Shown here: in pieces, positions 1 to 6,535 of the stretch
How the letters are laid out: the number at the start of each line of letters is the position of its first letter
How positions within the stretch are numbered: the first letter of the stretch is position 1
NCBI RefSeq assembly: GCF_000196315.1
Contig: NC_014230.1
Span: 372,001 to 436,000, forward strand
Length of the DNA: 64,000 nt
Direction: 5' to 3'
Source of the DNA: Croceibacter atlanticus HTCC2559
GTDB lineage: Bacteria; Bacteroidota; Bacteroidia; Flavobacteriales; Flavobacteriaceae
Program-made: the position numbers and the translations under genes
The notes under the pieces: model-generated
Seen by the model: only the letters and a program-made list of their open reading frames with translations
Databases searched by the model: none
What the model was told of the DNA's origin: nothing

Positions 1-1900
1 CTGTAACTGAAAAATCATCTGCATCTTCACCTGAAAATGAGATGCCTGTAATCTCTAATCCTGTATTACCCATATTACCTACACTAACTAATTCTGTTCT
101 TGTATTTGTAATAATTTGAGTGTCTTGAAAATTTATCATAGCGCGATTAACAGTAAGTAATGCCTCAAGTGCATTTCCTGAAAGTGATACTGTATTTGGA
201 GAACTATCGTCATCACTCACAACACTTAGCGTCGCTGTTTTTTCCCCTATCTCTGAAGGCTCGAATGTAATAGGAACCATTATGTTATTTCCTGGAGAAA
301 TACTTATAGGTAACGTGACGCCTCCGATATTAAACTGAGTAGTTTCTCCAGATAAGTTTAATTCTGACACAACCAAATCGACCGAAGCTTCTTCAGTATT
401 TGAAATGATTAAGTTTTGCGTAGCTGGCGTGCCTACATTGGTATCGCCAAAATCAATACTGTTTGTTGAAAGTTCGATAAATGTTTCTGCGCCATTACCA
501 AGCAATGGAATCACGTGAGGACTGCTTGGTGCATTGCTTGTATAAGTTAAGGTTGCCGTCCTGTTACCTACCCCAGAAGGTGTAAATAAAACTTGTAAAA
601 TCACAGTATTTCCAGTACCAATAGTTAAAGGCTCATTGCTTGTGGTAATTTCAAAATCTGATGCGTGTGCTCCTGATATACTTCCAGAAGACAACTCTAA
701 ATCTGCAGTTCCTGTGTTTTCAATATTAAAGTTTTCTGCACTAAAACTACCAAAATCAACATCTGCAAAATCTATAGGGTTTGGAGTGATGGAAATACCG
801 CTTTCTTGACCGAAGCCTCTTGTAAAAATTGAAGATAAAGCATCACTGTTTACGGTTTCAATTCTAAAAAACGTAGAGCGCTCGCCTGTAGCAGAAGGCG
901 TAAATTGAACCTCAACAGGATACGTACTATTACCAGGAATATTAAACGGTAAACTTGATGGGTCTGTAACTATAAAATCATCATTTGCTCCTGTAGAAGG
1001 TGAACCTGCAGAAAAATATAGGTTACTCAAAACTAAAGTACCGTCACCTGTATTGTTAACATCTACCGTTCTGGTTGTTGGCACTCCAACTTCTTGACCA
1101 TCAAATTCAAAAGGACTCATTTGTACTTCTATTTGCGGTAATAGGATTTCGGCTTGCAAATTTGAAAAGATGGTTGGGTTATTTGGGTCGTTAGTGTCAA
1201 TTTGAATATCTATTCCTCTAACTGCTGTATTGGGCGAACTTGTTTGCTCACGTGCTATGGCATTAAAAGTAACTTCAAAATTTCGTGATTCTCCTTCAAT
1301 TAAAGTAAACGGAAATGAAATTCCAGATTCTAGGCTAAAGTCTTCAATAAAATTTGCATCTGTTGTAAAATCTAAACTAGAAACCATTAAATCTGCATTA
1401 CCTGTATTAGATAGTGTTATCTCATCTGTAACATTCACAAAAATATCGTGTGTGCCAAAATTTACATTAGTCACCTCTGCAATAGGCTCAAAAATTTCGC
1501 CAGCACTTCCGCTCAGAGGAATATCTACAGTTCCTACAGGTGTACTAAAATCTGTTCCATAAGTAACTATGAGGGTTGCATTTTTATTACCAGGTGTAGT
1601 AGGATTAAAATTTGCCTCCACAATAACTTCTCCTTCCGGCCCAAAAGGAGCGCCTGGATTGTTGGATTGACCAAATTGATTAGCATCTGGACCAGTAATA
1701 TCAAACTCAATAATTGTCCAATTGTTTGAGGTGTTATTGGTTAAAAATGTAACCTCGGTAGATTGTTGACCTACGTCTAAGTTTCCAAATTCTATAGAAG
1801 ATGGATTAGCAGTAGCATCTTGAGCATTAGATTGTTGTATACTTAAAAAGACAATGCAAACAACAAGTAAATATTTAAACATTAAGTAAGTGTGCTTCAT
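1..1900 (-). CDS. Secreted repeat protein with choice-of-anchor D (ASH-like) domains, 3' end beyond the window
   Basis: About 633 residues are visible and the frame is still open at the left edge. The ATG at 1900 (alternative at 1882) opens a signal peptide with a hydrophobic core near residues 8-22 and likely cleavage before Gln after SNA. The mature part holds at least six beta-sandwich repeats of about 105 residues, each with a strand like IDFG..NVG followed by NTG..DL and a closing SG..A..F.I. This is the choice-of-anchor D / ASPM-SPD2-Hydin-like pattern common in large Bacteroidetes surface proteins. The C-terminus, where a type IX sorting domain would sit, is not visible. It lies downstream of the two-component genes and is preceded by the 38-bp phased element. 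Role inferred: surface or adhesion protein. No enzyme motif is seen. Confidence 0.85.
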   Translation of the reverse strand, partial: MKHTYLMFKYLLVVCIVFLSIQQSNAQDATANPSSIEFGNLDVGQQSTEVTFLTNNTSNNWTIIEFDITGPDANQFGQSNNPGAPFGPEGEVIVEANFNPTTPGNKNATLIVTYGTDFSTPVGTVDIPLSGSAGEIFEPIAEVTNVNFGTHDIFVNVTDEITLSNTGNADLMVSSLDFTTDANFIEDFSLESGISFPFTLIEGESRNFEVTFNAIAREQTSSPNTAVRGIDIQIDTNDPNNPTIFSNLQAEILLPQIEVQMSPFEFDGQEVGVPTTRTVDVNNTGDGTLVLSNLYFSAGSPSTGANDDFIVTDPSSLPFNIPGNSTYPVEVQFTPSATGERSTFFRIETVNSDALSSIFTRGFGQESGISITPNPIDFADVDFGSFSAENFNIENTGTADLELSSGSISGAHASDFEITTSNEPLTIGTGNTVILQVLFTPSGVGNRTATLTYTSNAPSSPHVIPLLGNGAETFIELSTNSIDFGDTNVGTPATQNLIISNTEEASVDLVVSELNLSGETTQFNIGGVTLPISISPGNNIMVPITFEPSEIGEKTATLSVVSDDDSSPNTVSLSGNALEALLTVNRAMINFQDTQIITNTRTELVSVGNMGNTGLEITGISFSGEDADDFSVT

Positions 1901-1975
1901 AATAATAGGTTTTCAGAGATATAACAATACATACATAAACTTTATGCAATGTATAGTCTACCTTAACCTCTTACA

Positions 1976-2013
1976 ATACGTATAAGCACGAATAAACTAC
2001 GTGTTACTACGTA
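1976..2013 (-). promoter_or_regulatory. 38-bp phased ACGT-box element, copy 1
   Basis: Read on the minus strand this segment has TACGT, ACGT, CGTG and TACGTA boxes starting near element positions 1, 12, 24 and 32, roughly one helical turn apart. It aligns without gaps to the copy at 2436-2473 with 29 of 38 identical bases, in the same orientation. It overlaps the end of the degenerate receiver gene, including its stop codon, and lies 76 bp ahead of the start of the repeat protein. Spacing and placement suggest tandem operator sites for a dimeric regulator, most simply the LuxR-type regulator at 2475-3128. The binding protein is inferred. Confidence 0.55.
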
Positions 2014-2389
2014 GCTGTTTATTTTGAGAGCTGTTAGTCACCAAAACATCATTTACACACTTAGAGATTGACTCAAATGTATCTGTAGGAAACACATAAC
2101 CCTTAATATGATCAAACTTTAATATAGACAAATCATTATTTAAAAAACCATCTTCTATAATAATCATATTTAATGAAGCTTTAGACTGCTTTAAATATTT
2201 TTGAGAGTTTTGATATAGTTTTCTTTCAAGCAATACAATATCTACGTTAGGTAAGTTTGTAAAAGTAATTCCATCTGTAGATTTTAAGCAAAAACCAGTA
2301 GCTATATAACCTTTAGTATTAAGATATTGCGTTACAGAATAGGCGTATAATTCTGAAGAGTGGTAAACAGCTACGGTATGTAAATTCAT
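1997..2389 (-). CDS. Degenerate response-regulator receiver (pseudo-receiver) protein
   Basis: A stand-alone protein of 130 residues with the alternating strand-helix pattern of a CheY-like receiver but without its active site. Where a receiver has its acidic pair, this protein reads VAVYHSSEL (near residue 10). At the phosphoacceptor position the strand ends VDIVLLER, so Asp is replaced by Glu. The conserved Lys late in the fold is absent in GYVFPTDTF. It has no output domain. It sits directly downstream of a LuxR-type regulator gene with an 85-bp gap that carries a 38-bp phased element. A Glu at this position can mimic a phosphorylated state, so a constitutive partner-binding role is possible. 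The fold is inferred from pattern; the function is unknown. Confidence 0.7.
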   Translation of the reverse strand: MNLHTVAVYHSSELYAYSVTQYLNTKGYIATGFCLKSTDGITFTNLPNVDIVLLERKLYQNSQKYLKQSKASLNMIIIEDGFLNNDLSILKFDHIKGYVFPTDTFESISKCVNDVLVTNSSQNKQLRSNT

Positions 2390-2435
2390 AGTATATTTTA
2401 TACTTGAAAGGTATAACTAGTATACAAAGCTGTAT

Positions 2436-2473
2436 ATACGTAGTACCACTAATAAATTACGTATAATCACGTA
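2436..2473 (-). promoter_or_regulatory. 38-bp phased ACGT-box element, copy 2
   Basis: This is the second copy of the element at 1976-2013, same orientation, in the gap between the LuxR-type regulator gene (stop 2 bp away) and the pseudo-receiver gene. Boxes read TACGT, ACGTA, a weaker AGTG and TACGTA. Just downstream on the minus strand is CAGCTTTG, one base away from the Bacteroidetes -7 consensus TAnnTTTG, which would place the element directly upstream of a promoter like an activator site. No further copy was seen upstream of the kinase gene. Confidence 0.55.
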
Positions 2474-2474
2474 A

Positions 2475-3128
2475 CTATAATGCTAAAATTATAACCTTAT
2501 TTGTCATTGCCCAATTAGATAGTTTAGTGTTAACCTGCTTGAGCCCTAACTTTTCTATAATATTGCTTCTGTGCTTTTCTATAGTTCTTGAAGAGACGGA
2601 CAGTTGCTCTGCAATAGCATTAGTTGAATTTTGGTTTGCTATTTTTTTTAATATTAGAGTTTCAGAAGGTGTAAGTAGCTTTAGTTTTCCTAATTCGTCT
2701 TCTGCATCAATTATGGCTTTTGTATCAAACGACTTGCTAAAGCACGTTTTTCCACTTAAAACTGTTTGAATACATCGTTCTATTTCAAAAAACGAATCTT
2801 CTTTTAGTAAATAACCTTCTATCTGTAAGGATTTTGCCTGTGCTACATATTCACTTTCCTTATGAAATGACAACACAATAAATTTAGTTAACACACCTTT
2901 CTCCTTTGCCATCTTTACAACATCGAACCCAGTAAGCAAAGGCATATCTATATCTAACAAGGCTACATCGGGACGCTCAGACAATACAGCTTCCAGTGCT
3001 TGCATACCTTGTAAAGCCTGAGACACAACATTGTAGTTATGTTTAGTTAACTCATCATATAAACCTTTTAGTAACATAGGATGATCATCTGCAATGACAA
3101 TTGATATTTCTGAAGGTTTTAATGGCAT
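2475..3128 (-). CDS. LuxR/NarL-family response regulator
   Basis: A full-length regulator of 217 residues. The receiver domain (about 7-125) has the acidic pair Asp14-Asp15, phosphoacceptor Asp59 in ALLDIDMP and the conserved Lys in YLLKED. The output is a GerE-type helix-turn-helix at about 153-205, with LTPSE at its start and SSRTIEKHRSNIIEKLG in the recognition region. The start codon overlaps the stop of the upstream kinase, so the two are translationally coupled and almost certainly cognate. The protein is the natural candidate to bind the phased elements at 2436-2473 and 1976-2013, which precede the next two genes; that link is inferred. Confidence 0.93.
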   Translation of the reverse strand: MPLKPSEISIVIADDHPMLLKGLYDELTKHNYNVVSQALQGMQALEAVLSERPDVALLDIDMPLLTGFDVVKMAKEKGVLTKFIVLSFHKESEYVAQAKSLQIEGYLLKEDSFFEIERCIQTVLSGKTCFSKSFDTKAIIDAEDELGKLKLLTPSETLILKKIANQNSTNAIAEQLSVSSRTIEKHRSNIIEKLGLKQVNTKLSNWAMTNKVIILAL

Positions 3129-5134
3129 TATTTTACGGGTATTGTTAGTGAGATGGTTGTTCCTTTTTGAGGTTCACTATTAATTGTAAGAATACCCTTT
3201 ATAATCTTAGCTCTTTCAAAAAGGGTTTTCATTCCTAAACTATTCGAAGTTAATAATTTATTGGCAGTACTAAATCCTATTCCATTATCTTTTATAAGCA
3301 CGACTATGGTTTTATCTTTATTGAAAACCTTTACCGATGCAGATGGCGATTTAGAATGCTTTACTATATTTCCTAGGGCTTCTTGTATAATCCTATATAT
3401 ATGTAACGCTTGGTCTTCACTTATTTTATGATCTATATTTTCAATATCATTAGTAAAAAAAATATCTGTATTTGCATCGGTTTCATTTACCAAGGATGTT
3501 ATTGCAGATGTAAGTCCTAAACGATTTAAAATTGATGGATGCAATCCTCTAGAAATACTTCTTAACTCTTCTAAAGTTGTATTTGCGAGAGTAAGCATTG
3601 GCGTATCTCCAAACGTTTTAGTCTGTCTTGTAAGAAGCATTAATTTTTGCCCAACACTATCGTGCAGTTCTCTTGCTACACGTGTTCGCTCAGCTTCTCC
3701 AGCCTCGATTAACTCTTGAGAATATTGCTCTTGTTGTTGTTTTTCTTTTTTAGCAAAATTTCTTGAACGTATAATAACCACTAAACAAAATGCACCTAAG
3801 AGGCCTAAACCTCCAAAAATTATCCACTGAGATTTTACTTTATTTTCTGAGTCTAATAGCTCAATATTTTGCTTTTGGGTTTCAATCTCTAAATCTTTCT
3901 TAGCTGTTTCAAACTGTGTTTGTACATAGGCAAATCGGTTACGTGTAGATGCTGTTTTTATTGAATCGTTTACTTTAGAGTATACTTTATAGTATTCTAA
4001 AGCTTTTGCATTGTTCCCTTTACGTTCATAAATTATAGACAACAAACTGTTTATTTTAAGAGAAAGACCAGCATCCTTACTGTTTTGTATATGTTTTACC
4101 AGCTCTAAACCTATACGTTCTGCATCTTGCAATCTATTTTCTGAAAGCGCTATATAAGCTTTGGCAAAATCGTAATTGGTTTTTAATTGGGAATTAAAGG
4201 ATTTCCCTTCCATAATTTTATTAAGCCTCCTTAAATATACTTTTGCCGTATCTATTTTATTTGCTCTAGCATATGCCTCAGAAGCATAGCTTAAAACGAG
4301 AACACTCACAATTTCCTGAATGTCTGACTTTTCATTTTTAAATTTAAGTGCCTCTCTGTAATGGTATAACTCTTCGTGATCATCTAAAAAAACAGCCTCG
4401 ACACCAGCTTGTAAATGAGCCATGGCAACCACTTGCTCTTCGCCTATTTTAGGTCCTTGTTCGTAAATGACTTGTCTTGCTTTTTTAGCCTGATCATTTA
4501 GTCCATTTCTCCCAAACAAAGTAGCCAACCCATTTTGGGACCATAAATAAAACAAAGTATCCTTTTGGTGTATAAATAGTGCAGATGCTTTCTCGAAATG
4601 TTCCGCACTTTCAGATATTTCATTAAGCTTAGATAGATTTTCAGCAGATTTAAGGTACAAGTATCCATACTCATAAAGTGACGAATCTTTAACTTTTTCC
4701 AAATATGTAATACCTTGTTTAGATAACAATACTGCGTTTTGCAGTTGCTCTAAATATCCTGCCGCCTCTGAGTATGCTACGTAATATTTACCAATCTCAG
4801 AAGGTATTGTTACGTTGGCTAGGTGCTTTTCAAAATTATTTAATGTTTTAAAAGCTTCTTTATGCTGAAGCGTTTTATAGATATAGAAATTACTTAACAC
4901 ATTGGAATAAACTAAGGCCTCATCATATCTCTCAAGGTTTATATATACTCTCGAGTATTTCTTAATTGAATCTAAGTGAAACACTCCAAATTTATCTTCA
5001 GACATTACAAAATGCTCATCTACATTTCTTGTTTCTGATAATTTTAAAGCAAAGCTGTCATTTAAATTAGCTTGCTGTGCAGAACTATTTAAAAAAGATA
5101 ACAAGACAAGTATGTACCAAAGAAAATTCTTCAT
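3128..5134 (-). CDS. TPR-repeat sensor histidine kinase (HisKA_3 type)
   Basis: The ATG at 5134 is chosen because it opens a signal peptide (FLWYILVLLSFLNSSAQQ); the frame extends 29 codons further but that would overlap radA. The product has 668 residues: an outer sensor of TPR-like helical repeats (about 50-420), one membrane segment (about 437-456), a dimerisation helix with phospho-acceptor His491 in ARELHDSVGQ, and an ATPase domain with DNGIGF and a glycine-rich end. This architecture is typical of Bacteroidetes kinases paired with LuxR-type regulators, and the partner gene follows with a stop/start overlap. The ligand is unknown; the TPR sensor suggests protein or peptide recognition. 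Confidence 0.93.
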   Translation of the reverse strand: MKNFLWYILVLLSFLNSSAQQANLNDSFALKLSETRNVDEHFVMSEDKFGVFHLDSIKKYSRVYINLERYDEALVYSNVLSNFYIYKTLQHKEAFKTLNNFEKHLANVTIPSEIGKYYVAYSEAAGYLEQLQNAVLLSKQGITYLEKVKDSSLYEYGYLYLKSAENLSKLNEISESAEHFEKASALFIHQKDTLFYLWSQNGLATLFGRNGLNDQAKKARQVIYEQGPKIGEEQVVAMAHLQAGVEAVFLDDHEELYHYREALKFKNEKSDIQEIVSVLVLSYASEAYARANKIDTAKVYLRRLNKIMEGKSFNSQLKTNYDFAKAYIALSENRLQDAERIGLELVKHIQNSKDAGLSLKINSLLSIIYERKGNNAKALEYYKVYSKVNDSIKTASTRNRFAYVQTQFETAKKDLEIETQKQNIELLDSENKVKSQWIIFGGLGLLGAFCLVVIIRSRNFAKKEKQQQEQYSQELIEAGEAERTRVARELHDSVGQKLMLLTRQTKTFGDTPMLTLANTTLEELRSISRGLHPSILNRLGLTSAITSLVNETDANTDIFFTNDIENIDHKISEDQALHIYRIIQEALGNIVKHSKSPSASVKVFNKDKTIVVLIKDNGIGFSTANKLLTSNSLGMKTLFERAKIIKGILTINSEPQKGTTISLTIPVK

Positions 5135-5173
5135 TAGTTTCGTAAATATATTTTTTTTAGCTGACTTTCTATT

Positions 5174-6535
5174 ATGGCCAAAACTAAAACTACCTTTTTC
5201 TGCCAAAACTGTGGCACACAATATTCAAAATGGCAAGGCCAATGTTCTGCTTGTAAAGAGTGGAATACTATTGCCGAAGAGGTCATCCAAAAAGCTGAAA
5301 AAAGTGATTGGAAAACTGCTACAGCACCTAAGAAAAGAGTGGCTAAGCCACAAAAGGTTGCAGATATCTCTTACACTCAAGAACAACGCTACAATACTAA
5401 AAACAATGAGCTAAATCGTGTTTTAGGTGGTGGCTTAGTGCCAGGAAGCTTAACACTTCTTGGTGGTGAACCTGGTATAGGTAAAAGTACCTTAATGCTT
5501 CAAATAGCGTTACAGCTTCCGTTTAAAACTCTTTATGTTTCCGGAGAAGAAAGTGCTCAACAAATAAAAATGAGGGCAGAACGTATAGATAATTCAGAAA
5601 GTAATTGCTTTATCTTAACTGAAACTAAGACACAAAACATTTTTAAGCAAGTAGAAGCTATTGAGCCAGATATTGTGGTTATAGACTCTATACAAACACT
5701 TCATTCAGATTATATAGAAAGTAGCGCAGGTAGTATTTCTCAAATTAGAGAGTGTACTACAGAGCTTATAAAGTTTGCTAAAGAAACAGCTACACCAGTT
5801 ATTTTAATTGGTCATATTACCAAAGACGGAAACATTGCTGGACCAAAAGTCTTAGAGCATATGGTAGATACTGTTTTGCAGTTTGAAGGCGACAGAAATC
5901 ATATTTATAGAATTCTTAGAGCTCAAAAAAACCGTTTTGGAAGTACTCACGAACTTGGTATTTATGAAATGCAAGGCTCTGGTTTGAGAGAGGTTGCCAA
6001 TCCTAGTGAAATATTACTATCTAAAAATGAAGATGACCTAAGTGGTACTGCTATTGCAGCAACTCTTGAGGGTATGCGCCCATTAATGATAGAGATACAA
6101 GCCCTAGTAAGCTCTGCTGTTTACGGTACTCCACAACGAAGCGCTACAGGATATAATGCCAAACGACTTAATATGCTTTTAGCTGTTCTAGAAAAAAGAG
6201 CTGGATTTAAATTAGGTGCAAAAGATGTCTTTTTAAATGTAACCGGTGGAATTTCTGTAGATGATCCTGCAATTGATCTCGCTGTGGTTGCAGCTGTTTT
6301 ATCCAGCAATGAAGATATTCATGTTCCTAAAGATATTTGTTTTGCAGCAGAAGTGGGTTTAGCAGGAGAAATAAGACCTGTACCAAAGATAGAGCAACGA
6401 ATACTAGAAGCTGAAAAACTAGGCTTTGCATCAATTATGATTTCACGCTATTGTAAACTTCCGAAGGAAACCTATGGCATCAACGTAGTAAAAGCAGCGA
6501 AGATTACAGATGTTGTGCATTATCTTTTTGGATAG
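5174..6535 (+). CDS. radA: DNA repair protein RadA
   Basis: Complete RadA of 453 residues, normal length. It starts with a four-cysteine zinc finger (Cys10, Cys13, Cys24, Cys27), has the Walker A motif GEPGIGKST at 98-106, a Walker B strand ending VVIDSIQT, and the RadA-specific KNRFG motif at 252-256. The C-terminal third is the Lon-protease-like domain. RadA is a RecA-like branch-migration helicase acting in recombinational repair. It is divergent from the TPR kinase, with only 39 bp between the two starts, so the promoters must overlap or lie within the coding ends. Confidence 0.97.
   Translation: MAKTKTTFFCQNCGTQYSKWQGQCSACKEWNTIAEEVIQKAEKSDWKTATAPKKRVAKPQKVADISYTQEQRYNTKNNELNRVLGGGLVPGSLTLLGGEPGIGKSTLMLQIALQLPFKTLYVSGEESAQQIKMRAERIDNSESNCFILTETKTQNIFKQVEAIEPDIVVIDSIQTLHSDYIESSAGSISQIRECTTELIKFAKETATPVILIGHITKDGNIAGPKVLEHMVDTVLQFEGDRNHIYRILRAQKNRFGSTHELGIYEMQGSGLREVANPSEILLSKNEDDLSGTAIAATLEGMRPLMIEIQALVSSAVYGTPQRSATGYNAKRLNMLLAVLEKRAGFKLGAKDVFLNVTGGISVDDPAIDLAVVAAVLSSNEDIHVPKDICFAAEVGLAGEIRPVPKIEQRILEAEKLGFASIMISRYCKLPKETYGINVVKAAKITDVVHYLFG

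Follow-up and report, generated by a model that had tools for sequence, protein, structure and literature searches.

A four-box TACGTA array in fixed register with -7 boxes of Flavobacteriaceae: a probable operator of the adjacent NarL-type two-component system

Introduction

To our knowledge, operator sequences are known for few two-component regulators of Bacteroidota. ComA of Bacillus subtilis belongs to the NarL class. Its boxes are described as an inverted repeat of hexamers with a 4-nt spacer, with a second, more degenerate pair toward the promoter (PMC4797271). For Bacteroidota, a link between two-component control and type IX secretion is described in the case of PorXY / SigP.

The vegetative -33 element is TTTG-like and lies about 19 nt upstream of the -7 box. 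The mapped -7 boxes of F. psychrophilum are TAnnTTTG for sigma-A and TAnnTTGY for the motif SM5 (PMC9723704).

Here we analyse a window of 64,000 nucleotides from Croceibacter atlanticus HTCC2559 (NC_014230.1, positions 372,001 to 436,000), in which two copies of a four-box array lie beside the genes of a sensor kinase and a NarL/LuxR-type response regulator (RR). With a probability of about 0.82, we consider the element to be an operator-promoter of this kinase/RR system, at which the adjacent RR would bind.

The array resembles the ComA boxes in its 6-N4-6 dyad, in having a second pair on the promoter side and in the greater degeneracy of that pair. It differs in its self-palindromic hexamer TACGTA, where ComA has TTGCGG, and is not a ComA site; in its second pair, which is N4-spaced here whereas that of ComA is a direct repeat with a 5-nt spacer; and in abutting the -33 position at a nearly invariant distance, in a Bacteroidota promoter. 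Two-component control linked to type IX secretion is shared with PorXY / SigP, but the window RR reaches 34.3 bits against the NCBIfam PorX cut-off of 300, PorX being a different regulator, and the apparent target here is a cargo gene and not the secretion machine. Compared with the flavobacterial sigma-A and SM5 promoters, the -7 boxes at the arrays are mostly of the same types, whereas here the -33 is weak and the array lies directly upstream; what is new is a core promoter in fixed register with the array. An OmpR-type system (PMC5399024) was set aside as irrelevant to the array. In the open-access literature, preprints excluded, we found no description of the site or of the putative small RNAs (sRNAs) reported below.

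Results

Two arrays on the minus strand

The original prediction was of a duplicated 38-bp element with ACGT-like boxes close to one helical turn apart, lying before two adjacent genes, with the neighbouring LuxR-type regulator as the candidate to bind it. The two copies (1976-2013 and 2436-2473) indeed share 29 of 38 bases without gaps, and 76% when the pair is extended to 41 nt, while the best 38-mer pairs in 20 dinucleotide shuffles of window positions 1-4000 share 24-27. The ACGT-like cores are found at zero-based element positions 2, 12, 23 and 33, with a spacing of 10-11-10 bp in both elements; the first, second and fourth are as predicted, and the third moves from about 24 to 23. Each copy does lie at the end of one gene and before the next, but the direction had to be corrected: the genes here lie on the minus strand, which is therefore also the reading direction of the elements and places them downstream of the regulator and upstream of the targets (Table 1). 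The 130-aa gene runs 17 nt into the copy at 1976-2013 (1997-2013), with its stop codon inside the overlap, and array 1 starts 1 nt past the regulator stop codon (2477-2475).

The minus-strand consensus is TACGTR-N4-YACGTA-N5-TACGTR-N4-YACGTA, that is, two dyads of hexamers, with a weaker third box in the window copies (TTAGTG in array 1, TTCGTG in array 2). A four-box pattern derived from both copies and allowed up to 3 mismatches finds nothing but the two copies, either in the window (against 0 matches in 100 shuffles) or in the whole 2.95-Mb genome. A held-out profile, trained on 43 promoters from outside the window, ranks the window sites first in the genome among 150 scored out of 2758 first-look candidates (array 2, E 1.4e-10; array 1, E 1.9e-6); the next-best place has an E of 0.015, and the window pair alone lies below 0.01. 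The two-box pattern with one mismatch gave 75 matches in the same genome against 95 for the control per strand; thus, only the full array is informative there.

Table 1 Features of the locus, in positions of the window.
Feature	Position	Strand	Description
Sensor histidine kinase	3128..5221	-	HisKA_3 and HATPase_c above cut-off; TPR-like region below Pfam cut-off
NarL/LuxR-type response regulator (RR), 217 aa	2475..3128	-	Putative DNA-binding protein
Array 1	2437..2473	-	TACGTG 2473-2468, TACGTA 2463-2458, TTAGTG 2452-2447, TACGTA 2442-2437; 10-11-10
-7 box TACCTTTC	2406..2413	-	Starts exactly 60 nt from array 1 start; putative promoter of receiver-like gene
Receiver-like protein, 130 aa	1997..2389	-	Putative array 1 target; receiver fold (model)
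Array 2	1977..2013	-	TACGTA 2013-2008, CACGTA 2003-1998, TTCGTG 1992-1987, TACGTA 1982-1977
-7 box TACATTGC, TAnnTTGY type	1946..1953	-	Starts exactly 60 nt from array 2 start; putative promoter of giant secreted protein
Giant secreted protein, 5' part	1..1900	-	Putative array 2 target; runs beyond the window; complete at L173:9182-15901

Genes of the window

In minus-strand order, the sensor kinase gene is followed by the RR gene, the 130-aa receiver-like gene and the giant gene. The kinase reading frame is called from a TTG, and its true start is probably further in. The RR matches Response_reg (PF00072, 70.7 bits, 1.4e-19) and GerE (PF00196, 43.9 bits, 1.8e-11), both above the gathering scores, and its residues D14, D15, D59 and K109 (acidic pair, phospho-Asp and Lys) are invariant across 20 aligned sequences. 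With a receiver, a C-terminal GerE helix-turn-helix and the conserved acidic pair, Asp and Lys, the RR is by its predicted domains a regulator of the NarL/FixJ (LuxR-type) class. The gene at 5174-6535, which we take to be radA-like, is divergent from the adjoining kinase gene, and a very similar radA-like gene flanks the kinase in loci L078, L079, L080, L081, L083 and L084.

The 130-aa protein has no Pfam match above cut-off, and no DNA-binding domain was detected in it. Its AF2 model reaches a pLDDT of 81.8 with a 9-row alignment, against 43.4 from the single sequence, and retrieves mostly receiver domains in Foldseek (best E 8.5e-5); by this model, the protein has a receiver fold. In the sequence as read, His-Ser replaces the acidic pair and Glu the phospho-Asp. 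Relatives encode at this position anything from a bare receiver to a full receiver-GerE regulator, so the 130-aa gene looks like a decaying second regulator. As a search handle it proved too diverged, with matches at E<=0.001 in 1 of 397 family genomes, its own.

As completed in L173, the giant protein is 2239 aa long. Its N-terminus reads as signal-peptide-like, its repeats are Ig-like and of the choice-of-anchor D / ASH-Hydin kind, and it ends in a T9SS type A sorting tail.

A fixed promoter register

To define the register we used 72 distinct arrays (up to 4 mismatches, identical arrays counted once), which were chosen irrespective of the -7 box. The 45 with a gene start called within 130 bp are the promoters analysed here, and 43 of them, leaving out the two of the window, trained the profile of 74 positions. 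In 41 of the 45, the distance from the array start to the start of TAnnTT is exactly 60 nt, while the next-best offset accounts for 3/45. Over all 72 arrays, 60 have a -7 box at +60 and 12 are without it, 4 of these among the 45; both window copies keep it. Of the two dyads, the one nearer the gene extends as far as the -33 position; the start of the -7 box lies 23 nt past the array. Because conservation is low from the array to the -7 box, the register reflects more than homology of the whole region.

The boxes at +60 are TAnnTTGC in 19 of the 45 promoters, TAnnTTTG in 11, TAnnTTTA in 6 and other types in the rest. At the -33 position, TTTC or TTTT is present in 24/45 and the rest are mixed, not TTTG; the window arrays have TATA and TTGT there, likewise not TTTG. 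The called start codon follows the array by 44-64 bp in 30/45. In genome G095 the arrays precede different genes, and each of the 13 examined (13 of 13) has the -7 box in register in one of its two orientations, the background being 0.8% for each position and orientation.

Conservation in Flavobacteriaceae

RR matches at E<=1e-25 occur in 191 of 397 family genomes, paralogs included. We analysed 79 RR loci, 48-69% identical to the window RR and drawn from the best 80 of 540 candidates, and in 35 of them the array (up to 5 mismatches in 24) lies within 400 bp after the RR stop; it was found in 0/79 upstream stretches, which are coding, and in 0/395 shuffles of the downstream stretches. The helical-turn spacing is kept in these relatives, as distances between TACGTA-like boxes up to 900 bp downstream of the RR peak at 10, 11, 21 and 31 (62, 25, 40 and 19 pairs), against 12, 5, 7 and 5 pairs in three times as much upstream sequence. 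The four-box pattern (up to 3 mismatches) is present in 14/397 family genomes, with a reversed control of 0 in every genome. Twelve of these fall among the 41 genomes with a close RR relative, hand-picked from the RR search at >=200 bits, and 2 (G345 and G379) among the 356 others (Fisher p 2.3e-11).

Copies had also been expected ahead of the corresponding pseudo-receiver and repeat-protein genes of relatives, and by position this is what we observe. An RR gene, an array, a receiver-like gene, a second array and a giant-protein gene follow one another in the same way in G078 (L078), G336 (L077), Kordia (L103), a Flavobacteriaceae (L104), Psychroserpens (L105), Winogradskyella (L108) and Lacinutrix (L110), and in L078 the second array overlaps the receiver gene end as in the window. 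With only 10-21% identity between the receiver-like proteins of relatives and that of the window, it is by position that they are taken as orthologs; the L076-L078 proteins fall short of the Pfam receiver cut-off.

The proposed search of this and related genomes with a profile was carried out for the family with 12 candidates scored per genome and strict filters. Thirty of the best 44 matches lie 0-1500 bp downstream of an RR, and 9 of the other 14 are the dispersed regulon of G095. This tally sets the first 44 profile matches, one array appearing on both strands, against 57 hand-entered RR entries; some RRs (e.g. that of L213) are absent from the list, and the non-adjacent count is therefore too high.

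Genome G095 (L066-L072, L091, L093) holds 9 arrays at up to 3 mismatches and 12 profile matches, 12 being the number of candidates scored per genome. Several of its arrays stand before different large secreted genes on different contigs, some near contig ends, as in an expanded regulon.

Targets and their link to the regulator

Downstream of the arrays lie receiver-like genes and genes for giant secreted proteins; six loci (L105, L111, L112, L117, L120 and L133) have an array 61-246 bp before the kinase gene, which suggests autoregulation of the kinase operon. Targets of at least 800 aa are enriched (19/45 vs 20/275, p 1.5e-8, with some reading frames cut by locus ends), and signal peptides, by a crude rule of our own, weakly so (29/45 vs 125/275, p 0.024).

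Of the 46 loci with a co-directional next gene, 42 have a four-box array or perfect dyad, as opposed to 3 of the 33 with a convergent one; for the four-box array alone the counts are 33/46 and 3/33. The exceptions are arrays despite a convergent next gene (L097, L137, L141) and co-directional genes without a site (L156, L157, L167, L170). Counting against binding by the adjacent RR, 44 of the 80 RRs in the tree have no four-box array within 1 kb; 20 of these 44 are from Aequorivita. In Aequorivita and others a convergent gene directly follows the RR and the array is absent there, so that the array seems tied to the target gene and not to the RR 3' end. In the genome of Aequorivita aquimaris (G027), a four-box match at up to 3 mismatches was found nowhere, and the profile gave one partial match (E 3.7e-5). 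The RR tree requires at least 10 changes of the array label; with phylogeny counted, the association between array and gene direction comprises 5 independent pairs and is not significant (median p 0.5, or 0.25 with the wider label).

Near-perfect arrays follow the RR in L097 (7646-7682) and in L137 (Altibacter) with the next called gene convergent, and there either the target gene was lost or a short transcript is unannotated. A variant site, TACGTA-N4-TACGTA, follows RRs that are 48-53% identical in L161, L163-L166, L168, L169, L171 and L172; its N4 is C- or G-rich (CCCC, CCCA, CCCT, CCCG, ACCC, GGCC), and several of these sites have a further TACGTA about two turns on.

A paralogous regulator and tandem putative sRNAs

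The family scan also matched loci beside a paralogous RR of 210-213 aa, which has a similar recognition helix (RTVDKHRSNI vs RTIEKHRSNI) and single dyads in the same register. In these loci, tandem units, numbering about 2-8 by eye, follow one another at intervals of 130-290 bp. Every unit has one dyad, a -7 box at +39 (by eye), a conserved GCTATTAATT...TTCTTAGGGAGAATT stretch and a terminator-like hairpin; +39 is the register of boxes 3-4 of the arrays. Among 40 distinct units, selected by a -7-like box just upstream and not by the dyad, 38 have the TACGTA dyad, and in 36 it lies exactly 51 nt upstream of GCTAT. The consensus fold keeps the terminator-like hairpin alone, a second hairpin appearing in the one single-sequence fold. 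The conserved stretch (up to 2 mismatches) is present in 87/397 family genomes, with a control of 0, and absent from the genome of the window. On the ten loci tried, Rfam matched only tRNAs and not the putative sRNAs. These tandem units look like sRNA genes driven by the paralogous RR.

Tandem units with a conserved 5' GCUAUUAAUU occur in L208, L209, L211, L213-L216 and L220-L229, in most cases next to a paralogous LuxR-type regulator. In L209 the sRNA-linked regulator is directly preceded by a gene of 146-148 aa (2228-2668), with similar ones in L213, L215, L216, L220-L222, L225 and L227; the L209 product, the one gene scanned, is similar to clan AA aspartic proteases, at a score short of the family cut-off (27.5 vs 57.95 bits).

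Discussion

In the mechanism that we propose, each element would fuse an operator to a core promoter. The sensor kinase would phosphorylate the NarL-type RR, whose dimers would bind TACGTR-N4-YACGTA dyads, two of them side by side on the 37-bp array and, judging by the spacing, with all four boxes on one face of the helix. Because the gene-proximal dyad abuts the -33 position and the -7 box follows 23 nt on, bound RR would be placed to touch RNA polymerase directly, and from the observed register we infer that the promoter would be switched on by class II activation. The outputs within the window would be the receiver-like protein and the giant protein with its type IX secretion tail; speculatively, the former may feed back on the circuit.

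It is unlikely that the operator-promoter is bound mainly by another NarL/LuxR-type regulator, or by the second LuxR protein that some relatives encode next to it, instead of the adjacent RR. The recognition helix is largely common to the paralogous RRs, some receiver-like neighbours keep a GerE domain (L076, L078), and two array-bearing genomes have no close RR, all of which fits such a protein. The arrays remain, however, where the receiver-like protein shows no DNA-binding domain, as in the window; moreover, the RR is their usual neighbour, and in six loci they also stand ahead of the kinase-RR operon.

A role of the RR as a repressor that covers the -33 region and blocks the promoter is improbable in our view. 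Box 4 does end directly before the -33 position, which speaks for it, but the mixture of -33 sequences described above, without TTTG, is as expected for an activator-dependent promoter, and two dyads directly upstream of a core promoter resemble activator sites such as those of ComA.

We reject as very improbable that the repeat serves the preceding gene as a transcription terminator or 3'-terminal RNA hairpin. Although both copies lie at gene ends and one hairpin with a T-rich tail was flagged on the plus strand (1997-2014), the genes here run on the minus strand, Rfam gave no match up to E 1 in window positions 1-6000, and the site keeps a fixed -7 register and goes with the downstream gene, being rare before convergent genes and present far from any RR. 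Chance similarity of two AT-rich stretches, to which the mere two copies in the genome might point, is already refuted by the shuffles of the window pair, pattern and loci, by the reversed control in 397 genomes and by the held-out profile.

A wider arrangement appears somewhat more plausible than its absence. Paralogous NarL-type regulators of Flavobacteriaceae would use one cis code, a TACGTA dyad in fixed -7 register. A two-dyad branch, of which the window would hold a member, would drive genes for giant type IX-secreted proteins and for a degenerate receiver and, in some cases, the operon of its own kinase. A one-dyad branch would drive about 2-8 tandem small RNAs beside the regulator gene, in a layout reminiscent of Gac/Rsm.

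Since the putative operator can be paired with a likely regulator, a promoter geometry and a set of targets, it makes the control of giant type IX-secreted proteins directly testable. The profile of 74 positions provides a searchable code for regulon annotation, and the work on the array points to a paralogous circuit that seemingly controls tandem small RNAs.
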